From the IMG/VR virus record IMGVR_UViG_3300020202_000002, positions 24,747 through 88,746 of that record: a stretch of DNA of 64,000 nt. One strand, 5' to 3'. How positions within the stretch are numbered: position 1 is the stretch's first letter; every line of letters starts with the position of its first letter. A program made the translations under genes and the position numbers. The stretch comes from a virus. Under the pieces are notes generated by a model, which was not told the origin of the DNA, did no database searches, and was given only the letters and a program-made list of their open reading frames with translations. This document shows positions 3,664-48,462 of the stretch, piece after piece.

Positions 3664-6289
3664 CTCCAGCAGTTATGAGGCCATGATGCGCCAAGCGGCC
3701 GCCACCACACGCGCCGCCGTCGCCTCCATGGGAACCGCCATGACGGCTGGCATAACCGCTCCGTTCGCTGGCGCTGGCGTGATGGCCGTCAGCGCTGCCG
3801 CGCAGATGGAACAGGCTCAAGTCCAGTTTTCGACCATGCTGCAGTCCGAAGCCAAGGGCATGCAGATGGTCAAGGACCTCATCCAATTCGCGGCTGCCAC
3901 CCCGCTGACGACGCCGGAAGTGACGACGGCGGCTCGCACGCTGCTGCAGTTCGGCGTTGAGGGCGAAAGGGTCATCGAAACGTTGCGCATGCTCGGCGAC
4001 GCTGCCGGCGGCGACTCCCAGCGCTTCCAGTCCATGTCGCTGGCGTTCGGGCAGATGTCCGCGGCCGGCCGGCTGATGGGGCAAGACTTGCTGCAAATGA
4101 TCAATGCCGGTTTCAACCCGCTTCAGGAGATTTCACGGACAACCGGCAAGTCGATGGGGCAACTGAAAAAGGAGATGGAGGATGGCAAGATTTCGGCGGC
4201 GATGGTGACGGCAGCGTTTCGCTCGGCCACGAGTCAAGGCGGGCGATTCTTCAACATGATGGAGAAGCAGTCGCAGACGGTCACTGGCCTGTGGTCCACG
4301 ATGCGCGACAACGCCAGCCTCTTCCTGGTCACGCTGGGCGACATGATCATCAAGCAGCTTCACGTCAAGGACGCCATCAAGGCCGTATCTGCCGCCGCAG
4401 GGGACGTTGGCAACTGGCTCAAGTCGCTGAGCCCGATGGCTCAGAAAGCAATGTTGGCCGTGGCGCTGATCGCATCAACCCTGGGGCCGCTGCTGATCGT
4501 CCTTTCGGCCGTTGGCCCGGCTGTCGTCGCCGGCTTCGGCTTGTTCATGTCGACTGTCCTGCCCATCGTTGGTGTCGTCGGCGTGGCGGTCGCTGCGGTC
4601 GCTCTCTGGGTTCGCTCAGTGGGTGGCCTGGGGCCAGCGTGGGCGCTCGTAGCGGAGAAGGCAGGGGCGGCGTGGGCGTTGATTAAGGACGCGGCCATGT
4701 CGGCATGGACGTGGATCACCACCAACTTCGGCAGCATTGCTTCGTGGATTGCGCCCCTGTTTGCGGGCGCTGGAATAGAGATACTCGCCACGATCACGCT
4801 GATAATCGCGGCAGTGAAGGCAGTCGGAGCAATCTTCACGTACCTCAAGGGTGTTTTCTTCGAGAACTACGATGCCATCAAGGCAGTCAGCGATGGCTAC
4901 TTGACACTCGCTGGGCGCGTGCTGATGGCTATCGGCATCACCAAACTGTTCCTGTTCGCGGCTGGCCTCGTCATTGGGGTTCTTAAGGCTCTCGGCATCG
5001 TCCAGTTGGCCACGAACATTCTGTGGGTCGGCTGGGCTATCAGTTTGGCGACCGTCAAGGGACTCGTCGCCATAGTCACAGGCGTCATGCTGGTTGCTCA
5101 GGCGGCGACGTGGCTGTGGAACGGCGCTCTGACGGTCATGAACATACTGCTCTCGCCGGTCGCCATTCTTGGAGTGGTTGCGGCGATCGGCGTACTGGTG
5201 GCGATTCTCGCTGTCGCCGGCTCGGCGCTCTACGGGCTGTACAGCGCTGGCCAGCAGCTTATCGGCACGCTCACAGGGCTCAGTAACACCACGCTCGGCA
5301 CGCACCTGTCTTCCGTCTTCGGCGAGTGGAAGACGATCCTCACGGATGTGTTCAACCTCGCCAAGTCGGGCGACTTCTCCGGCGCGTTCGAGATGCTGAA
5401 ACTCGGCGCGGACCTGGCGATCAACCAGGTGAAGGACCTGTGGCCGCCCTTGTGGAACTTTATCAGAGATGGTTTCGGGCATTTGTGGACCATCGTCTCG
5501 ACGACGTTCATGGTGGAAATGCAGCGTGCGCTGATCAACGTCAGCAACAGGACACTTGACTTCCTGACAAGTTGGGACAAGACAGGGATGCTCACGAGTG
5601 GCCTGCGATCCGGTGTCGGCACACTGCTCAATAGTTGGAACGCCGGTCTGTCGCAAAGCGAGAACAACGTCAACCGGTCCACCTTCGCGCTGGGCCAGAT
5701 GGCAAATCAGTTTCAGGCGGTCGAATCAGCCGCAACTCAAGCCTCGCGAGCGAACGTCGAGGTGGCCAATCTCGAACGTGAGTACGCGAACTTCTTCCGC
5801 GATCGCGACGCCGCTGACGACATGAATCACTGGGTCGTCAACGCCACGGAACAGTTCGACGAGTTCGGCAATGTCGTCGCCAGTTCGGACGCAGCAAGCC
5901 AAGCCAGCCGTCTCGGCGCGCAAACCGGCGAAGCACTCGCCACCGGGGTCAAGAAGCATGCCGGCCATGCAATGGACAGTTTTCAGGCTGCAGCAGTCGG
6001 CAGTGCCGAAGCCATCGCCCGCATGAATGCCTACCGGGACACCTTCCGGCAGATGGGTTTCTCCGCGAACGCCCTGGCAGGCGGGACGACGCCAGCGACA
6101 ACTCTGGCGGGAGCGAGCACAGCCGCCAGCCCCACGACATTAGCTAACGTGGTATCGCCTCCGGGACGAACCGACAACACCCAAGAACACCTCGCTGTTC
6201 TCAAGGATATCCTGCATCAAGCCAAGCTGCAGACCGCCATCATGCAGCGCGAAACCGGTGTGATTCTGGAGGAAGTGGACCTGGAATGA
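3611..6289 (+). CDS. tail tape measure protein
   Basis: 892 residues from a GTG. Residues about 30-230 contain the tape-measure N-terminal domain pattern (MGQDLLQMINAGFNPLQEIS, then a KSMGQLKKEMEDG stretch). A long hydrophobic block at about 275-560 has several membrane-like segments, and the C-terminal quarter is helical with Gln/Ala/Ser repeats. Tape measures set tail length and are ejected with the DNA. Using the usual rule of about 0.15 nm per residue, the tail would be roughly 130 nm (inference). It is the largest gene here and overlaps both neighbours. Confidence 0.88.
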   Translation: MAVNEQEVGRMVVRLLGDSSSYEAMMRQAAATTRAAVASMGTAMTAGITAPFAGAGVMAVSAAAQMEQAQVQFSTMLQSEAKGMQMVKDLIQFAAATPLTTPEVTTAARTLLQFGVEGERVIETLRMLGDAAGGDSQRFQSMSLAFGQMSAAGRLMGQDLLQMINAGFNPLQEISRTTGKSMGQLKKEMEDGKISAAMVTAAFRSATSQGGRFFNMMEKQSQTVTGLWSTMRDNASLFLVTLGDMIIKQLHVKDAIKAVSAAAGDVGNWLKSLSPMAQKAMLAVALIASTLGPLLIVLSAVGPAVVAGFGLFMSTVLPIVGVVGVAVAAVALWVRSVGGLGPAWALVAEKAGAAWALIKDAAMSAWTWITTNFGSIASWIAPLFAGAGIEILATITLIIAAVKAVGAIFTYLKGVFFENYDAIKAVSDGYLTLAGRVLMAIGITKLFLFAAGLVIGVLKALGIVQLATNILWVGWAISLATVKGLVAIVTGVMLVAQAATWLWNGALTVMNILLSPVAILGVVAAIGVLVAILAVAGSALYGLYSAGQQLIGTLTGLSNTTLGTHLSSVFGEWKTILTDVFNLAKSGDFSGAFEMLKLGADLAINQVKDLWPPLWNFIRDGFGHLWTIVSTTFMVEMQRALINVSNRTLDFLTSWDKTGMLTSGLRSGVGTLLNSWNAGLSQSENNVNRSTFALGQMANQFQAVESAATQASRANVEVANLEREYANFFRDRDAADDMNHWVVNATEQFDEFGNVVASSDAASQASRLGAQTGEALATGVKKHAGHAMDSFQAAAVGSAEAIARMNAYRDTFRQMGFSANALAGGTTPATTLAGASTAASPTTLANVVSPPGRTDNTQEHLAVLKDILHQAKLQTAIMQRETGVILEEVDLE

Positions 6290-10300: not shown

Positions 10301-12112
10301 ATGGCAGAGTGCCTATTTCTGACGGATCAAGCGAAGGCCGATCTGGAATCTCTGGGCTGGACCTTCGTGGGACCTTACGAATCCGAAGACGCCTGCGTGA
10401 GCCAGAACCAGGAAACCGGCACTGGCACGTCCACTGGCACAGGGCACGTGTACGTCGACCTCACCTGTCCGGGCGAGCAACTGACCGGCGACCAGGAGGT
10501 AACGTTCGCCATCGGCGTCAGTGCCCCACACGTCACGACCCTGGAGGTGGATCTCGTCAGTACCGGCTGCTTCAGCATCACCTTCGCGACCACGACTGGG
10601 ATCTCGTGGAGCGTCGGCGCGAACGGCGGGACGATCCAGTCCTTTCAGGGCAGCGTGTCGGCTGTCGCGAATGCGCTTGCGAGTATCACGGTGGTGACGA
10701 CCACGCCATCGGCTACCGTCGACTTCACGGTCGCCGACATCGAGAACAGCAGCTACGCCTTCGACGAATGCAACGTCGTCATCACGGCGACCGACACGGG
10801 GACGGGAACTGGCACTGGCACTAGTACTGGTAGCCCGTCGTCGGGATGCGGATCGCCAACGGAGCTACCGGCACCACCATTCAGCTACGAAGACAATAAC
10901 ATCGACGCGCAGAAGTGGTACCACGTCGAATTGGACCCTGGTACGACGTATGCGCTTTCGCTCATTGCAATAGCAGGTCACGACACCGTACGGCTGGAAC
11001 TGTACACCGGCTGTGACGGCCACGGACGAGGAACAGGGTTTTTTGGCGCTGTAGACACTGAATTCTCTGGACCCAACGAGTTCAGCTGCGGGGAGATAAC
11101 TGGTATCTCCGACCTATGGATGCTGGCGGTCACTGTTGGAGCTACGTATCGCATCGACATGGATCCTGGCACTTGCGGCAGCCAGACGGGGACAGGAACT
11201 GGCACGCTCACTGGTTGTGAAGAAGCGACCTCACTCACTCTCGGTGCTATCCAAGCTGGCAGCATCACTGGCACGTCGGAGCGTGACTGGTACGTCATGA
11301 CAGGCCTGGACCCTGATACGCAGTACAGCATCAACCTGTGGACACAGGGCACACCAGCTGGCGTTCTGACAGGGGCGCTGTACACGACATGCGAGCGCAC
11401 CGGCGAAGGCTCAGGCGTGGGTGGGGTTCCCCAAATTCTGACGGCCGACAGCAGCGACTACGGCCAATGCTCGAACATCGTCGTGGGCGTGACGACGCTG
11501 TACATCGAGGTGCAGTACAACAACGCCGGCTCTGCGGATTACGAGCTGGCGGTTTACGAGGGGCTTTGCACGGATACCGGGACGGGAACAGGAACGGGGA
11601 GTGATGGGGGTGGCGCTGAGAGCCCACAGGGTCCACTGTTCCCAGGTACTGGCGCTAGCGATGCGTCGGTCGGCGTCACTGCGTGGACCAATCCTGGGAA
11701 TATATCCGCTGATGATGGAGTGTACGCGACGTGTACGTCCAATTCGCCGCAATACCTCAAAGCTACCAACTTCGGCTTCTCCATTCCCGATGGCGCGACA
11801 ATCGACGGTATCGAGGTCAAGATTCAGCTGTTCAGGACCGGACCGCGCGTGCACACCGTGAGCAACGTTCGCATGGTTAAGGCGGACGGATCGATATCGA
11901 CGACCAATCGCGCCTCCGACAACACGGTGATCAACACCACAGAAACTGAGAACACGTACGGCGGCGACTCGATCCTGTGGGGGGAGACATGGACGGCGGC
12001 GGACATCAACGACGCTGACTTCGGAGTCGTTTTCAACTCCGCGCCCGGTGGAGGCAAGGGCATTCCCACGATCAGCGTGGATTGCATCACTGTGAAAGTT
12101 TGGTTCCATTGA
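10301..12112 (+). CDS. large multidomain tail appendage/fibre protein
   Basis: 603 residues; ATG at 10301 chosen because it follows the previous stop and aligns with module B of the small upstream protein. Module B (residues 1-35) is followed by at least three beta-sandwich-like domains separated by Gly-Thr-rich linkers (TGTGTSTGTG, TGTGTGTGTSTG, TGTGTGTLTG, TGTGTGTGSDGGG). Two middle domains share a W-Y-x-M/V...D-P-x-T-x-Y-x-L/I pattern typical of secreted prepeptidase-like adhesion domains. The C-terminal domain is again beta. Likely a host-contacting fibre; the linkers could be glycosylated (inference). Confidence 0.65.
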   Translation: MAECLFLTDQAKADLESLGWTFVGPYESEDACVSQNQETGTGTSTGTGHVYVDLTCPGEQLTGDQEVTFAIGVSAPHVTTLEVDLVSTGCFSITFATTTGISWSVGANGGTIQSFQGSVSAVANALASITVVTTTPSATVDFTVADIENSSYAFDECNVVITATDTGTGTGTGTSTGSPSSGCGSPTELPAPPFSYEDNNIDAQKWYHVELDPGTTYALSLIAIAGHDTVRLELYTGCDGHGRGTGFFGAVDTEFSGPNEFSCGEITGISDLWMLAVTVGATYRIDMDPGTCGSQTGTGTGTLTGCEEATSLTLGAIQAGSITGTSERDWYVMTGLDPDTQYSINLWTQGTPAGVLTGALYTTCERTGEGSGVGGVPQILTADSSDYGQCSNIVVGVTTLYIEVQYNNAGSADYELAVYEGLCTDTGTGTGTGSDGGGAESPQGPLFPGTGASDASVGVTAWTNPGNISADDGVYATCTSNSPQYLKATNFGFSIPDGATIDGIEVKIQLFRTGPRVHTVSNVRMVKADGSISTTNRASDNTVINTTETENTYGGDSILWGETWTAADINDADFGVVFNSAPGGGKGIPTISVDCITVKVWFH

Positions 12113-24586: not shown

Positions 24587-25056
24587 TGGACCGGTGGACA
24601 GTCGGGTTCTGGCACGAACGAATTCGCGCTGCCATGCAAGGCGGCAAGGGACTGCGCGAGGCGATCAGCGATTGCGGATCGGATGTCAACTACTGGAAGC
24701 GCATTGACGGACAGGCACAGGCGATTCTTGCGGAACACGTCCAGCCCGGAGACAAGGTTCTCGATGTCGGCTGCGGCCTGGGCGACTTGTCGGCGCTGTT
24801 GCCTCCTGACGTGGTGTATGTGGGCGTGGATTTTGTCCCTGAGTTCGTGGCCGAGGCCGAGCGGAGATTCCCGAGCAGAGAGTTTGTTGGCGGCGACCTT
24901 CACGACTTGAGCAGGTTTGCTGACCGCTCGTTTGACTGGGTCATCGCCAGAGGAGGCACCAGCGAAGTCAACCCCGAGATGCGACGGGTGGCTTGTGGAG
25001 CAGTCCTGATGTCGTTTTCGGATCCGGTGCAAGCTGATGTGGCCAGGTGGGGGTGA
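24586..25056 (+). CDS. SAM-dependent methyltransferase, short copy
   Basis: 156 residues. Begins TVGFWHERIRAAMQGGKGLR and continues DKVLDVGCGLGDLSALLP and VVYVGVDFVPEFVAEAERRF, the class I SAM motifs I and II. Paralogous to the longer protein at 27133, which shares the N-terminal F-W-x-x-R-I-R-A-A and central G-C-G-x-G-D-L. The C-terminus is shorter here. Substrate unknown. Confidence 0.68.
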   Translation: MDRWTVGFWHERIRAAMQGGKGLREAISDCGSDVNYWKRIDGQAQAILAEHVQPGDKVLDVGCGLGDLSALLPPDVVYVGVDFVPEFVAEAERRFPSREFVGGDLHDLSRFADRSFDWVIARGGTSEVNPEMRRVACGAVLMSFSDPVQADVARWG

Positions 25057-38577: not shown

Positions 38578-38805
38578 ACATTTCCCCCGCATTTCTCCCG
38601 ACATTTCAAATTCGACGTAAGTCATTACCCCCGACAGGACTCGAACCTGTGACCGACGGTTTAGAAAACCGATTCGGCACGCGACAAACGTTCAGAGCGC
38701 ACAAGTGAGCACTTCATTTTACCCATGTTTTTTGGGGTGAATGCGCTTGCCAAGCATCCGCTCGCGCGGCATTATCAACCAAAACATTTCCCCGCGCATT
38801 TCCCC
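38578..38805. other. attP: attP-like attachment region with arm-type repeats
   Basis: The region carries a tRNA-derived core (38626-38672) flanked by similar arm-like repeats: ACATTTCCCCCGCATTT at 38578, ACATTTC at 38601 and ACATTTCCCCGCGCATTT at 38784. The integrase gene starts 12 bases later. Core plus outlying repeated arm sites next to a tyrosine integrase is the standard attP layout. Because phage genes lie on both sides, this appears to be an unoccupied attP rather than a prophage end. Confidence 0.7.
38626..38672 (-). tRNA. 3' half of tRNA-Arg(UCU) (attP core, not a full tRNA)
   Basis: On the minus strand the sequence reads anticodon loop TTTCTAA (anticodon TCT) with a 4-bp stem, a short variable region, a perfect T-arm ACAGG-TTCGAGT-CCTGT and acceptor CGGGGGT plus discriminator A. 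No D-arm or 5' acceptor strand precedes it. Temperate phages commonly carry such a 3' tRNA copy to restore the gene upon integration. Confidence 0.75.
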
Positions 38806-38816
38806 GGTGAAGCAGG

Positions 38817-40007
38817 ATGTCGAACCGACTCGCGTTCACGCAATCGAATATCGCAGCAATCAAACCGCCCGAAACTGGGCGCGCGTTCGCCTACGACGCG
38901 AAGACGCCTGGACTGGCGCTCGTCACGACCAGTGGTGGCGTCAAGAGCTTCTACTTCATCCGGTGGGTTCAGGGGCGATCGCTCAAGCTCTTTCTCGGCC
39001 ACTTCCCAGCCATGACGATCTCGGCCGCACGCAAAACCGCCACATCCATGCTCGACCAGGCGAACCGCGGGCAGGTTCCGAAGAAGATCGGGGCCGGCCA
39101 GCTGACGCTCGGCCAGCTGTGGGCCACGTTCGAGAAACACTGGATGCCCTACCTCCGCGAACGCACGCGCAAGACCGACACCGACCGCTACAACGCCTGC
39201 CTGAAGTCCTTGGAAAGAAAGAGGCTGAGCGCTATCACTCGTGAGCATGTGGTCACGTTGCATTTGAAGCTCGGGGAGGCCCGCGGCCATGTCATGGCGA
39301 ACCGGGCCATCCAGCTGCTGCGCCGGCTGTTCAATTACGCCATCGTGGACCTGAAACAACGGACGCTCGACAACCCGGCCCGAGGCATCCGACTTTTCTC
39401 GGAGGAGAAACGCGAGCGATTCCTTTTGGCCAAGGAGATGCCAGCCTGGTTCGCCGCGCTGGAGGCCGAGCCCGAGCATATGCGCGATTTCTTCCTGCTC
39501 TGCCTGTACACCGGGGCCAGAAAAACGAACGTCCAGCAGATGCGATGGTCTCACCTCGATCTGGGCGAGCGAATCTGGACGATCCCCAAGGAGGAGTTCA
39601 AGACGGGCAAGGCGAAGGTTGTCGTCCTGTCCGCGCCGGCCGTGGAAATCCTGCTGCGCCGGCAAGCGTCAGCTGCAAGTGACTTCGTTTTTCCGAGCCG
39701 CAGCGCCAGCGGACACCTAGTGGAGCCGAAGAAATCCTGGGCGGCGGTGTGTAAGAGAGCAGGTATAGGCAATCTACGCATTCACGACCTTCGGCGCTCT
39801 CTGGGAAGTTGGCAGGCGAGTCTTGGCGCTTCACTGCCAATCATCGGCAAGAGCTTGGGGCATGATTCCCCGGCATCGACCGCCATCTACGCTCGCCTTG
39901 AGCTTGATCCCGTCAGGGCTTCCGTAGAGGCCGCGACAGCGGCGATGCTGGCGCACCGGACGCCGAAGCAAATCGAGGACAAAACGGATCGGGAAAGACC
40001 AGCATGA
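38817..40007 (+). CDS. int: tyrosine-recombinase integrase
   Basis: 396 residues. An N-terminal arm-binding domain (GVKSFYFIRWVQGRSLKLFL then GHFPAMTISAAR, P4-like), a core-binding domain, and the catalytic domain with R (YTGARKTNVQQMRW), K (KTGKAKVVVLS), H-x-x-R (IHDLRRSLGSW), LGH and the nucleophile Y (STAIYARL). Catalyses site-specific insertion at the tRNA-Arg attB and, with an excisionase, excision. Adjacent to attP. Confidence 0.92.
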   Translation: MSNRLAFTQSNIAAIKPPETGRAFAYDAKTPGLALVTTSGGVKSFYFIRWVQGRSLKLFLGHFPAMTISAARKTATSMLDQANRGQVPKKIGAGQLTLGQLWATFEKHWMPYLRERTRKTDTDRYNACLKSLERKRLSAITREHVVTLHLKLGEARGHVMANRAIQLLRRLFNYAIVDLKQRTLDNPARGIRLFSEEKRERFLLAKEMPAWFAALEAEPEHMRDFFLLCLYTGARKTNVQQMRWSHLDLGERIWTIPKEEFKTGKAKVVVLSAPAVEILLRRQASAASDFVFPSRSASGHLVEPKKSWAAVCKRAGIGNLRIHDLRRSLGSWQASLGASLPIIGKSLGHDSPASTAIYARLELDPVRASVEAATAAMLAHRTPKQIEDKTDRERPA

Positions 40008-44430: not shown

Positions 44431-44685
44431 ATGGCCTCCCGCAACCATCACCGACCGCGCCGGCCATCCTATTGCTCTCGACGGAAGCGTGGTGCGAGGA
44501 AGTTTTCTCTTCCATGCCTTTACTGTGACAAGCCAGTGTCCATGAATGCTGGCCGTTTCATCGAGTTGTTCGACGCCGACAAGCGTCCGGTATGCAGAAG
44601 GTGCCTACCTTACAGTTTCTATTTGGAGGCTTTTCATGACAGCAACAGCAGCAAAAGTGGCGAAGTTGAAAGACCTGGCTGGTAA
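44431..44685 (+). CDS. small zinc-finger protein upstream of array locus
   Basis: 84 residues from ATG 44431 with GGGAG upstream. Arg-rich start (NHHRPRRPSYCSRRKRGARK), then CLYCDKPVSMNAGRFIEL FDADKRPVCRRC, a two-pair zinc site. The final 50 bases overlap the next gene. Possibly part of the array locus; function unknown. Confidence 0.5.
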   Translation: MASRNHHRPRRPSYCSRRKRGARKFSLPCLYCDKPVSMNAGRFIELFDADKRPVCRRCLPYSFYLEAFHDSNSSKSGEVERPGW

Positions 44686-45178
44686 GGCCGGCCAGTCGAT
44701 CTACGAGAGACTCGGCATCGTGCAGGAAGTTCTCGCCGACAAGGAATACGTCGCGGCCCACTACGGAGACGAGTCCAAGGCATTGGAAACTCTCGAAGCC
44801 GATGTGTTCGGCGACTTGTGCGGCTCGCGGTCCCTGACGGAACTTCTGGAAGTTCGCAAAGCGTTTCCCAGCGCCGAGCAGTGGAAGCAGCACAAGTGGA
44901 ACCTTTCGCGGCTACTGGCCGAGTGGGACGAACGCCGTCTTGCTGCTCGCGACGAGAGCGAGAAGCCGGAACGAAAGTCGCCCGTATCTCGCAAGGAACA
45001 CGAGACGGTCTTGCAGAAGCTTGCCGAGACGGAGCACGTCGCCGAGCGAAACGCCAAGACGGTCGACGAGCTGCGCGAGAAGCTTCGTCAGGTCGAGCAC
45101 GAGAACATCGCATTGCGGGCCAAGGTGGAGGAACTTGAGAGGCTGCTACAGGGCAGTTTGTCGCGAGCGGCAAGGTGA
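44636..45178 (+). CDS. coiled-coil protein upstream of array
   Basis: 180 residues; ATG 44636 is chosen for the GGAGG seven bases upstream. N-terminal helices (KLKDLAGKAGQSIYERLGIV), a middle WKQHKWNLSRLLAEWDERRL segment, and a C-terminal heptad coiled coil (TVDELREKLRQVEHENIAL then AKVEELERLL). No known Cas accessory is recognised. It ends 15 bases before the hairpin at 45193. Confidence 0.6.
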   Translation: MTATAAKVAKLKDLAGKAGQSIYERLGIVQEVLADKEYVAAHYGDESKALETLEADVFGDLCGSRSLTELLEVRKAFPSAEQWKQHKWNLSRLLAEWDERRLAARDESEKPERKSPVSRKEHETVLQKLAETEHVAERNAKTVDELREKLRQVEHENIALRAKVEELERLLQGSLSRAAR

Positions 45179-45192
45179 TGGACCAAACCCAG

Positions 45193-45230
45193 GTAGTCGC
45201 TCGCGTTTCGCAAGAGACGTGAGCGACTAC
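45193..45230 (+). promoter_or_regulatory. long inverted repeat before the array
   Basis: Perfect 10-bp arms GTAGTCGCTC/GAGCGACTAC with an inner GTTTC...GAGAC pairing (one G-U). No T-tract follows, so it may be a leader or processing structure rather than a terminator. GGTCTCAC at 45248 is complementary to the GTGAGAC end of the repeats. Confidence 0.5.
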
Positions 45231-45342
45231 GATTGTGACTCGCACTGGTCTCACAGCTATCGGAAACGGTGATGAAAACGCTGGGCTCTCGCGACGTGAC
45301 GACAAAACGTGGATGGCAATGCGGTGGCGACAGGTGGCCGTA

Positions 45343-45667
45343 GCAGAAGGTTGAGATCAGCAGGTGATGGTGAGACGCTAAGGCGATTCTGACGACCTCG
45401 CAATTCCTTGAGTAGCAGAAGGTTGAAAGCAGAAGGTGATGGTGAGACTAGGACAAGCACGCAAACCTACAGGGAAGGCAACGGTGCAGAAGGTTGGGAT
45501 CAAAAGGTGATGGTGAGACGGTCATGAACAAGGCTCTCGAAGCGACAGGCGCGTTGGGTGCAGAAGGTTTGATCGAAGTGGTGATGGCGAGGCTCGGGCC
45601 GACAGTTTGCAGGACAGTCAGGCGGTTGGTATCGCAGAAGGCTTAGTGAAAAGGTGAGAGCATGGGA
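45343..45667 (+). CRISPR. CRISPR-like array, left part (5 repeats, 4 spacers)
   Basis: 34-bp repeats start at 45343, 45415, 45486, 45560 and 45634. The conserved blocks are GCAGAAGG at the 5' end and AAGGTGATGGTGAGAC at the 3' end, with a variable 10-base middle. Spacers are 38, 37, 40 and 40 bases and unrelated to one another. The first three repeats are well conserved; the fourth and fifth are degenerate, and the fifth contains the start codon of the Cas12-like gene. The repeats lack self-complementarity, unlike many CRISPRs, so the assignment is tentative. Confidence 0.6.
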
Positions 45668-47047
45668 CAACCTGAAACGACAAAGTGTGTCCTGAAGCTG
45701 CGCCTTGGTGCCAGCCTGACTGGTCCGACCAAGCGGATGGCACGCGACCTACACCAAGCGTCCCTTCTGTACAACCAGTGCCGAAATGCTATCGTGCGGG
45801 CCTGGGAACGCAGTGCGGAAGACAACCCAAGCGAAACGTTCGCGATGTTCGTATGCCGTTGTGGTGCTGCCGAAAGGCGAGCCTCTCGCAAGGCCGCTGG
45901 AGAATCCAAGGTCCGCGAGCACTGTACTTGCGAAGACAACCCGTGTGAGGTGGCCAGACAAGCGTGCCCATTGCTGGCTGCCAAGATCACCACGTCTTGC
46001 GCCACGCAGGAAGTGTCGGCCAAACTGCGGTCCAAGCTCCCCTGGAACCGACCGAACAAGGCACACCGTTACATATGGCAGGGCATACTCGCCAACCAGG
46101 TTGCGCGGCCATGCTATCGCGGCTCGGAACTGCCGGTGCCTTGCCAGGACGCCAAGCTTTCGCTCACGGATAGCGGATACACGCTCAGTTTCCCGGTGTG
46201 GTCCTTGGCATCCGGTCGGCAGCACCGTAATTTCCTGTGCCGCATCCCGACGAAGCGGCTCACTCGCGGCTACAAAAGAATCCTTTTCAACATCGTCAAG
46301 GGCGAGTGGAATCTGTGCGATTCTCGCTTGCAGTTCCACGAACCCAGATCGCGGCAAAAGAAGGGTTTCTGGGCCATCCACCTTGTCTACGATCGCAAGC
46401 AGGATCCGATCGCCGGATTGGACAGCAAGCAGGTCGCCAGGCTTACTCTCCAGCCCAAGGACGCCAAGAAGCCTTTCGATGTCAGCACGGATGGTGTTTT
46501 CAAGCCATGGCTGCTGGGTGACGTGGATGTGTATCTCGGCTTCCTGTCTCGTTTGGAGACTCGCCGATTGGAGATGCGCCTACGTCACAAGGAGAAGGGG
46601 TCGGGGCGGCGTGGCCATGGGCGAGGTCGAACCGAAAAGGCGATTCGTCCGGCGACTCGCAAGGCGCGCAACATCGCTCGTCTGTTCCAGTGGCGCATCG
46701 TCGCGCAACTCGTGCGGTTCTGCGAGCGGTACGGATGTGGCGTCGTTGAGTTTAGCGAGCCGAAACAAGGGCAGAAGAATGCCAGCTGGTTTGCAGTGCC
46801 TGGTCGGCCGTGGACATGGGCGGACTTTATGAGCCGGCTGAAGCACAAGCTGTGGGTGAACGGCATCGATCTACGCGAGAGCGAAGGTGGTGAACAGAAA
46901 CAGGCACGTCGCTCGCGTGGCCCAAAGGTTAATGGTGGCACTGGTAACGGCAAGATGCCACACAATGGAGGCGAAGTGGCGAACGGAAAGAATGGGGTCG
47001 CTCGCAAGACGGGGCGAAAAGCTGGACGGGGACGCGACGAAAAGTAA
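45662..47047 (+). CDS. Cas12/TnpB-like protein, predicted nuclease-dead and C-terminally truncated
   Basis: 461 residues. Layout follows Cas12/TnpB: an N-terminal strand-helix start (CVLKLRLGASLTGPTKRMAR), a Cys-rich insert at about 65-102, and a basic RuvC bridge region (SGRRGHGRGRTEKAIRP, about 314-330) followed by ARNIARLFQWRIVAQLVRFC and CGVVEFSEP. Where RuvC-I should read G-V-D-L-G there is ARLTLQ (Thr262 at the Asp position). Where RuvC-II should have E-D-L there is S-E-P (Ser365). The protein then ends in a Gly/Lys/Arg-rich tail, with no C-x2-C zinc ribbon and no RuvC-III Asp. It may bind RNA and DNA without cutting, like Cas12m or TldR proteins. The family call rests on motif layout only. 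Confidence 0.65.
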   Translation: MGQPETTKCVLKLRLGASLTGPTKRMARDLHQASLLYNQCRNAIVRAWERSAEDNPSETFAMFVCRCGAAERRASRKAAGESKVREHCTCEDNPCEVARQACPLLAAKITTSCATQEVSAKLRSKLPWNRPNKAHRYIWQGILANQVARPCYRGSELPVPCQDAKLSLTDSGYTLSFPVWSLASGRQHRNFLCRIPTKRLTRGYKRILFNIVKGEWNLCDSRLQFHEPRSRQKKGFWAIHLVYDRKQDPIAGLDSKQVARLTLQPKDAKKPFDVSTDGVFKPWLLGDVDVYLGFLSRLETRRLEMRLRHKEKGSGRRGHGRGRTEKAIRPATRKARNIARLFQWRIVAQLVRFCERYGCGVVEFSEPKQGQKNASWFAVPGRPWTWADFMSRLKHKLWVNGIDLRESEGGEQKQARRSRGPKVNGGTGNGKMPHNGGEVANGKNGVARKTGRKAGRGRDEK

Positions 47048-47055
47048 TGGCAGGT

Positions 47056-47238
47056 GCAGAAGGTTGGAAGCAGAAGGTGATGGTGAGACGAACACGTCGA
47101 ACACGGTCACGTACTTCTCCGAGGATGGTGCAGAAGGTGTCGAGTCAAAGGTGATGGTGAGACGGCCTGATTGCGCAGCCAAGTAAATGAACGCAGAGGC
47201 GGGTTCAGAAGGTTTCGAGTCAAAGGTGATGGTGAGAC
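47056..47238 (+). CRISPR. CRISPR-like array, right part (3 repeats, 2 spacers)
   Basis: Repeats at 47056, 47130 and 47205 (34 bp, same strand as the left part) separated by 40- and 41-base unique segments. All three keep the AAGGTGATGGTGAGAC end exactly; the third has T for the first G. The gene thus sits inside one array or between two. No cas1 or cas2 is visible in the window. Confidence 0.6.
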
Positions 47239-47242
47239 GTGT

Positions 47243-47351: not shown

Positions 47352-47558
47352 ATGCTGGTTCTGGCGCGTCGAATCGAGGAAGAGTTGATCATCAACAACA
47401 ACATCACTGTGAAGGTGATCGAGTTGGGCCGAGGCCAGGTCAAGCTGGGCATAACCTGCGACCGCAACATTCCGGTTTATCGCAGGGAACTGGTCAAGAC
47501 GCAGGACCAGGTGAAGACGCTCTGGGGAACGGTTCCCGTTGGAGACGCCGATGCCTGA
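47352..47558 (+). CDS. csrA: CsrA-family translational regulator
   Basis: 68 residues. MLVLARRIEEELIINNNITV, KVIELGRGQVKLGITC and NIPVYRREL are the CsrA core, with Arg44-equivalent in the V-Y-R-R-E-L segment. CsrA dimers bind A-N-GGA in mRNA leaders and block or stabilise messages. Its own leader has AATGGAGGT, an A-N-GGA motif overlapping the ribosome site, so autoregulation is likely. A phage-borne CsrA may redirect host carbon, motility or phage gene expression. Confidence 0.88.
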   Translation: MLVLARRIEEELIINNNITVKVIELGRGQVKLGITCDRNIPVYRRELVKTQDQVKTLWGTVPVGDADA

Positions 47559-47862: not shown

Positions 47863-48193
47863 CCTGCAACGAAATCTGTTCGGCAACGACCCAGACCTGA
47901 CGCCGACGGTGTTCGCGCAGCGGCACAGCCGGACCAGCGTCGAAGCTGGCGAGAAGATCAAGCCGGTGCTGAACTTCCTGGAGCGGAAGGTGCTGGAATT
48001 CTTCCAGGCAAAGGGAGATGCCGGCGCGACCGACGAAGAGGCCCAGGAAGGCACCGGTCTGGGAGGTAGCACAGAAAGACCGCGGCGGACCTCGCTGGTT
48101 GAGCACGGTTTACTCAGGGACAGCGGACGAACGAGGAGAACTCGGAGCGGAAGGCAGGCGGTGGTGTGGATCTACATCGCTCAGGAGGAATGA
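47855..48193 (+). CDS. winged-helix DNA-binding protein
   Basis: 112 residues from GTG overlapping the previous stop. VLEFFQAKGDAGATDEEAQE then RPRRTSLVEHGLLRDSGRTR and RTRSGRQAVVW match phage winged-helix proteins with G-A-T-D-E-E...R-P-R-R-x-x-L...G. Probably an early regulator or recombination accessory. Confidence 0.65.
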   Translation: MSDLQRNLFGNDPDLTPTVFAQRHSRTSVEAGEKIKPVLNFLERKVLEFFQAKGDAGATDEEAQEGTGLGGSTERPRRTSLVEHGLLRDSGRTRRTRSGRQAVVWIYIAQEE

Positions 48194-48462
48194 CCATGAG
48201 CAGGAACGGCCAACGAACCCCGGAACAGATATTCGGCATCAAGCCGGAGCACGCGGCTGAACTGCTGGAGAAACTGACGCCGCGCGAGAAGGAAGTTGCG
48301 GCACTGATGGCGGCCGGCTGGACGAACTCGACGATCGCAGCGCGGCTCGACATCAGCAAGAAAACGCTCGACATCCACAGGGGCAAGGTGAAGCGCGGCC
48401 TTGGCTGTCCGATCAACGGCATCGGTCGCATCGTATTCGCGAGCATGTTTGCGCAGGAGTGA
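48190..48462 (+). CDS. LuxR/GerE-type helix-turn-helix protein
   Basis: 90 residues; ATG 48190 follows CAGGAGG. LTPREKEVAALMAAGWTNST then IAARLDISKKTLDIHRGKV is the GerE/LuxR C-terminal DNA-binding domain with no sensing domain. Likely a transcription regulator of phage genes, or an anti-/co-activator. Confidence 0.8.
   Translation: MTMSRNGQRTPEQIFGIKPEHAAELLEKLTPREKEVAALMAAGWTNSTIAARLDISKKTLDIHRGKVKRGLGCPINGIGRIVFASMFAQE

Follow-up and report, generated by a model that had tools for sequence, protein, structure and literature searches.

A predicted nuclease-dead Cas12f gene within its own repeat array on a temperate phage

The locus studied here lies at 45343-47239 of a 64,000-nt stretch of viral DNA (the window; positions 24,747 to 88,746 of the IMG/VR record IMGVR_UViG_3300020202_000002). 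It consists of a gene of 461 codons for a predicted nuclease-dead Cas12f effector (45662-47047, + strand) and an array of clustered regularly interspaced short palindromic repeat (CRISPR)-like repeats on both sides of the gene. The locus probably descends from a type V-F (Cas12f) CRISPR system and now serves its temperate phage as a DNA-binding regulator with a fixed set of several guides. The combination of a dead Cas12f, a surrounding non-adaptive array and a phage setting appears undescribed.

The first-pass annotation of the window had described a Cas12/TnpB-like gene of 461 codons on the same strand as the repeats. This was borne out, and profile, sequence, fold and tree specified the gene as Cas12f. 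The PADLOC profiles Cas12u3 and Cas12f matched the effector with E-values of 1.6e-11 and 9.1e-11, and a phmmer search of the PDB matched AsCas12f1 at 1.8e-7 and dCas12f at just 0.3. The Pfam search gave no match, and NCBIfam gave a weak TnpB match alone, under its cut-off. A structure model was built from nine aligned sequences (mean predicted local distance difference test score, pLDDT, 62.5). Foldseek comparison of this model, a check proposed earlier, ranked Cas12f structures first. All top PDB matches were Cas12f, and the best was AsCas12f (1.1e-16; template modelling score, TM, 0.61 by target). The dCas12f-guide RNA complex 9n9c (1.3e-14) had a TM of 0.65 by target length, the best among full-length matches. 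TnpB followed at ~1e-7 and Cas12m2 at 1.0e-6 (rank 31). In the maximum-likelihood tree, nine TnpBs were separated from the effector by a 100/100 branch, and the effector stood beside the intact phage Cas12f of locus L057 (support 88/66). Its exact place is unsure because its branch is very long (4.57). The reading frame stays open across 461 codons although its nearest relatives are only ~20-25% identical, which speaks for selection, and its first two thirds show a guanine-cytosine (GC) bias by codon position. Assignment of the effector to the Cas12f (type V-F) family, and not to TnpB or its dead derivative TldR, is supported. Among viral proteins, BFVD entry A0A1P8DIN8 (467 residues) was by far the best fold match (2.0e-14).

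Judged from its sequence, the effector is nuclease-dead. Threonine replaces the RuvC-I catalytic Asp (codon 262, 46445-46447, + strand) and serine replaces the RuvC-II catalytic Glu (codon 365, 46754-46756, + strand); both acidic residues are invariant across the aligned intact Cas12f proteins. The two assignments come from ungapped alignments, and one alignment shifts by one residue onto Glu366. The effector lacks the region that carries the RuvC-III Asp and the zinc ribbon. Where RuvC-III, the zinc ribbon and the TNB would be, it has a basic low-complexity tail of ~55 disordered residues (residues 406-461, 46877-47044, + strand; pLDDT ~30). The hallmark of active V-F, an intact RuvC Asp-Glu-Asp with a C-terminal zinc ribbon, is absent from the effector, which supports the loss of catalytic residues reported earlier. 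The fold ends at the same point in dCas12f, a protein already known to be dead (9n9c, 365 aa; matched up to residue 362). The effector retained 10 of 18 columns invariant in intact Cas12f in the N-terminal/WED part versus 1 of 11 in RuvC-I and RuvC-II; therefore, the nucleic-acid-binding half was held and the catalytic motifs were lost. Because the DNA-cutting residues are lost, the effector probably silences by guided binding, not by DNA destruction.

A motif search showed that the array contains seven clear repeats and one degenerate repeat, all on the + strand. The full repeat has the form GCAGAAGGT-N10-AGGTGATGGTGAGACG, with four copies at 45343-45594 and three at 47056-47239. Repeats 1 to 4 are located at 45343-45377, 45415-45449, 45486-45520 and 45560-45594, the last being the most diverged full copy, and repeats 6 to 8 at 47056-47090, 47130-47164 and 47205-47239. 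The start-to-start spacing is 72, 71 and 74 bp before the gene and 74 and 75 bp after it. The six spacers (45378-45414, 45450-45485, 45521-45559, 45595-45633, 47091-47129 and 47165-47204, + strand) are mutually unrelated, unique sequences of ~33-39 nt, depending on the chosen repeat start. The degenerate fifth copy, GCAGAAGGCTTAGTGAAAAGGTGAGAGC (45634-45661), adjoins the effector start codon and contains AAGG, the gene's ribosome-binding stretch, and repeat 6 begins within 10 nt (<=10) of the stop codon. The eight same-orientation repeats annotated earlier, five before and three after the gene with unrelated spacers, therefore stand; they are not uniform, having a variable middle and a degenerate fifth copy. 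No further full copy was found elsewhere in the window. In the rest of the 88,746-base record, the 15-nt repeat core was matched just at chance level, with 3 mismatches, and the exact repeat pattern had no match in IMG/VR. The sequence AAGGTGATGG at 45172-45181, at the end of the upstream open reading frame (ORF), equals ten bases of the repeat core and is perhaps an eroded earlier repeat.

The variation among the seven full repeats is concentrated in their middle. The nine columns at the 5′ end and the sixteen at the 3′ end showed 6 departing cells out of 175, and the central ten columns showed 25 out of 70. None of 20,000 random column-order permutations reproduced this concentration (0/20,000). 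Arrays that acquire spacers copy their repeats faithfully. Since drift is confined to the repeat middle here, whereas acquiring arrays copy faithfully, we read the array as fixed and kept for function, its repeats having aged apart only where change was tolerated. A small conserved hairpin within the variable middle was tried and was unsupported.

Intact phage Cas12f systems are present in IMG/VR (loci L004, L006, L007, L010 and L057). The array is upstream of the gene in L004, L006 and L057 and downstream in L007 and L010. An array on both sides of the gene, as found here, was seen in none of them. A degenerate last repeat directly before the gene occurs in L006 and L057, as at the present locus. 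The repeat ends of L006 (TATGGTGTGAAG) and of the present locus (GATGGTGAGACG) are identical at 9 of 12 positions, a score reached by 0.1% of the 12-mers in the window. L057 (IMGVR_UViG_3300033752_000161, 4033-5969) is an intact Cas12f1 block with a trans-activating CRISPR RNA (tracrRNA), seven repeats and the gene; no nearer relative was found, and it offers a useful comparison with an active system. Neither patterns taken from a single protein nor degenerate ones found close relatives of the effector in IMG/VR, and none were found in the searched phages or plasmids or in 396 genomes from the phylum of an Acidobacteriaceae match. The matches of the genome scan were glycerol kinases only, sharing FNIVKGEW by chance, and were rejected as relatives. 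Phages related through the phrog_3657 gene carried no effector homologue.

By analogy with known dead effectors, the best inference for function is an RNA-guided repressor of host or rival genes. No intrinsic terminator was found between 44900 and 47700, so the array and the effector gene are read as co-transcribed on the + strand. CRISPR RNAs (crRNAs) would be made from the array, with the repeat ends as handles held by the protein, with or without a tracrRNA. Each crRNA would lead the dead Cas12f to DNA that it matches, whether in the host, in a prophage or in a rival phage. The bound protein would block transcription without cutting, as the V-C, V-M and TldR effectors do, and the guides would be passed on as an inherited set rather than acquired. 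We speculate further, and with somewhat less conviction than doubt, that the dead Cas12f in its own array works with six or more inherited guides, whose repeat units evolve as individual regulatory RNAs and which together control several host or rival genes simultaneously without cutting.

Several results weigh against such a regulator. The spacers had no match above chance in their own phage, in 50,697 phage records or in 72,556 plasmids, and two spacers searched against IMG/VR with third codon positions free had no match. Because the spacers match nothing searched, we can only infer a silencing role. The effector branch length of 4.57 is accompanied by a dead state that no relative found shares. 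The covariance model of the V-F1 tracrRNA core had no match in the record. This model finds the core in four intact loci, which are its own building sequences, and misses L004. Non-detection is therefore not proof of absence, since a model built from its four matches also misses L004. In co-folding of the leader with the repeats, pairing was not better than with shuffled repeats. The leader does hold a 17-bp hairpin, perfect with G-U pairs allowed and closed by a GCAA loop (45193-45230, + strand), the longest such in the window (z −3.4 to −4.0). It overlaps AGGTAGTC (45191-45198), eight bases that also occur in the V-F1 tracrRNA core; at least one 8-mer of that core is present in 7% of random stretches. 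GTCTCAC at 45248-45254 (+ strand) is the 7-nt complement of GTGAGAC in the repeat end and thus a candidate anti-repeat, a weak one, as 11% of random 164-nt stretches equal it. The hairpin and GTCTCAC together are a weak tracrRNA candidate, judged by their sequences.

Two other explanations see no guided function in the array. The locus may be a decaying remnant of an active phage V-F system that lost its nuclease and is now eroding, the diverged repeats and the degenerate fifth copy being decay and nothing being made or bound. The very long effector branch, the spacers without targets, the unrecognisable V-F1 tracrRNA and the non-uniform repeats all agree with decay. We nevertheless consider it unlikely: the 461-codon frame is open, with GC bias by codon position in its first two thirds, the WED part is kept better than the catalytic motifs, and decay would spread departures over the whole repeat, whereas they cluster in the middle ten columns. 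Alternatively, the repeats may be protein-binding or iteron-like replication sites around a Cas12f-family gene whose product uses another RNA or none. At 71-75 bp, the repeats are spaced by roughly seven helical turns, and internal variability and spacers without targets would fit such sites. The single orientation and the unrelated spacers of CRISPR length argue otherwise, as do the V-F1-like repeat 3′ end, the array-before-gene order shared with L004, L006 and L057, and the position of the degenerate repeat, which stands last before the gene as in L006 and L057. This explanation is very improbable.

There is a small chance that the dead Cas12f is instead a guided activator or recruiter, which brings a sigma factor, a nearby helix-turn-helix (HTH) protein or another partner to the target. 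dCas12f works with an extracytoplasmic function (ECF) sigma factor, and the dCas12f-guide RNA complex, which ends at the same fold point as the effector, is among the best fold matches (TM 0.65 by target length). The basic tail of the effector could serve as a docking part, and the phage encodes both a sigma-70-like protein and a GerE/sigma region 4-like HTH protein at 48166. The sigma-70-like protein (record positions 10863-11069, locus L065) has regions 2 and 4 (Sigma70_r2, 2.2e-7). Its gene lies outside the window, however, ~59 kb from the effector and amid structural genes. No ECF sigma gene adjoins the effector, the distant gene being the sole Sigma70_r2 match, and the effector sequence is nearer to the active AsCas12f (1.8e-7) than to dCas12f (0.3). 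Some huge phages encode a sigma-70 of their own and carry a spacer against that of the host (PMC7162821).

A regulator derived from V-F can be compared with several known systems. V-F subtypes occur in huge phages (PMC7162821). The active phage V-F1 systems (L004, L006, L007, L010, L057; AsCas12f1) share with the present locus the protein family, the fold, a compact array beside the gene and a similar repeat 3′ end, and most phage systems likewise lack Cas1/Cas2. They differ in that RuvC is intact, the repeats are near-identical, the array is on one side of the gene rather than flanking it, and a clear tracrRNA core (TCGAGAAGTG...CACTCGATAAGGTAG), not found here, is present. The dCas12f that acts with an ECF sigma factor (PDB 9n9c/9n9m) is likewise a nuclease-dead Cas12f cut off before RuvC-III. 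Its sequence match to the effector is weak (E 0.3), and the present locus differs in having no adjacent sigma gene, a multi-spacer array and a basic tail.

Cas12 proteins have been inactivated on many occasions (PMC12669027). Among the dead forms, V-C and V-M effectors are directed by their crRNAs to sites where they block transcription (PMC12669027, PMC11656645), and TldR, a dead TnpB, blocks transcription from prophages (PMC13418256). TldR resembles the present effector in its dead RuvC, its temperate phage setting and the proposed guided repression. It differs in its descent from TnpB and its single guide, whereas the present protein falls with Cas12f in the tree and is accompanied by an array of several spacers. 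Cas12m (V-M) and Cas12c (V-C) are naturally non-cleaving transcription blockers, as is proposed here (PMC12669027, PMC11656645), but belong to other Cas12 branches, and the fold match to Cas12m2 is far weaker (1e-6 vs 1e-16). The phage variant II-C2 Cas9 with inactivated RuvC is also a phage-borne effector with a disabled nuclease domain, but it is of the Cas9 family, retains HNH and has a proposed anti-CRISPR role (PMC12669027).

The literature searched held no description of a dead Cas12f encoded by a phage within a fixed array whose repeats drift internally. The novelty suggested by the first-pass annotation appears to hold for the combination and not for its parts, as dCas12f (9n9c/9n9m), dead V-M and V-C, prophage TldR and active phage V-F are known. 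If the regulator is real, phages made an active mini-CRISPR into a gene switch with several guides, and did so independently of both TldR and dCas12f-sigma. As the guides of a fixed array, its spacers would name the host functions that the phage needs silenced, and a question about lysogeny would become directly testable. A small, naturally non-cutting Cas12f would also be on offer.

The temperate setting proposed earlier was upheld by a tyrosine integrase at 38817-40007. Since a LexA-type DNA-binding domain (47539), a DnaB helicase and a tail tape measure protein are also present, the virus is considered a temperate tailed phage. The claim of a system without cas1 and cas2 held for Cas1, which was not found in the record. 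A csrA gene (47352-47558; Pfam, 1.1e-16) starts 113 nt past the last repeat. Proximity to csrA is shared by a chromosomal clade of TldR (PMC13418256). CsrA as a dedicated partner of the effector is doubtful, because csrA also occurs, upstream of the same replication-region gene, in L034, a phage without Cas12f or any other Cas protein. Here, too, csrA may be no more than an ordinary gene of the phage. The repeats as CsrA decoys were ruled out, GGA being present in only 2 of 7 copies.

A small GerE/LuxR-type HTH protein with similarity to sigma region 4 is encoded at 48166-48459, 0.9 kb past the array, and is a possible partner. Directly upstream of the leader, on the same strand, lies a gene for a 180-aa protein with a coiled-coil-like C-terminus (44636-45178), which may share the transcript. 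A borderline tRNA-like match (38626-38691, − strand; Rfam 29.5 bits, cut-off 29) lies beside the integrase gene and is a possible attachment site.
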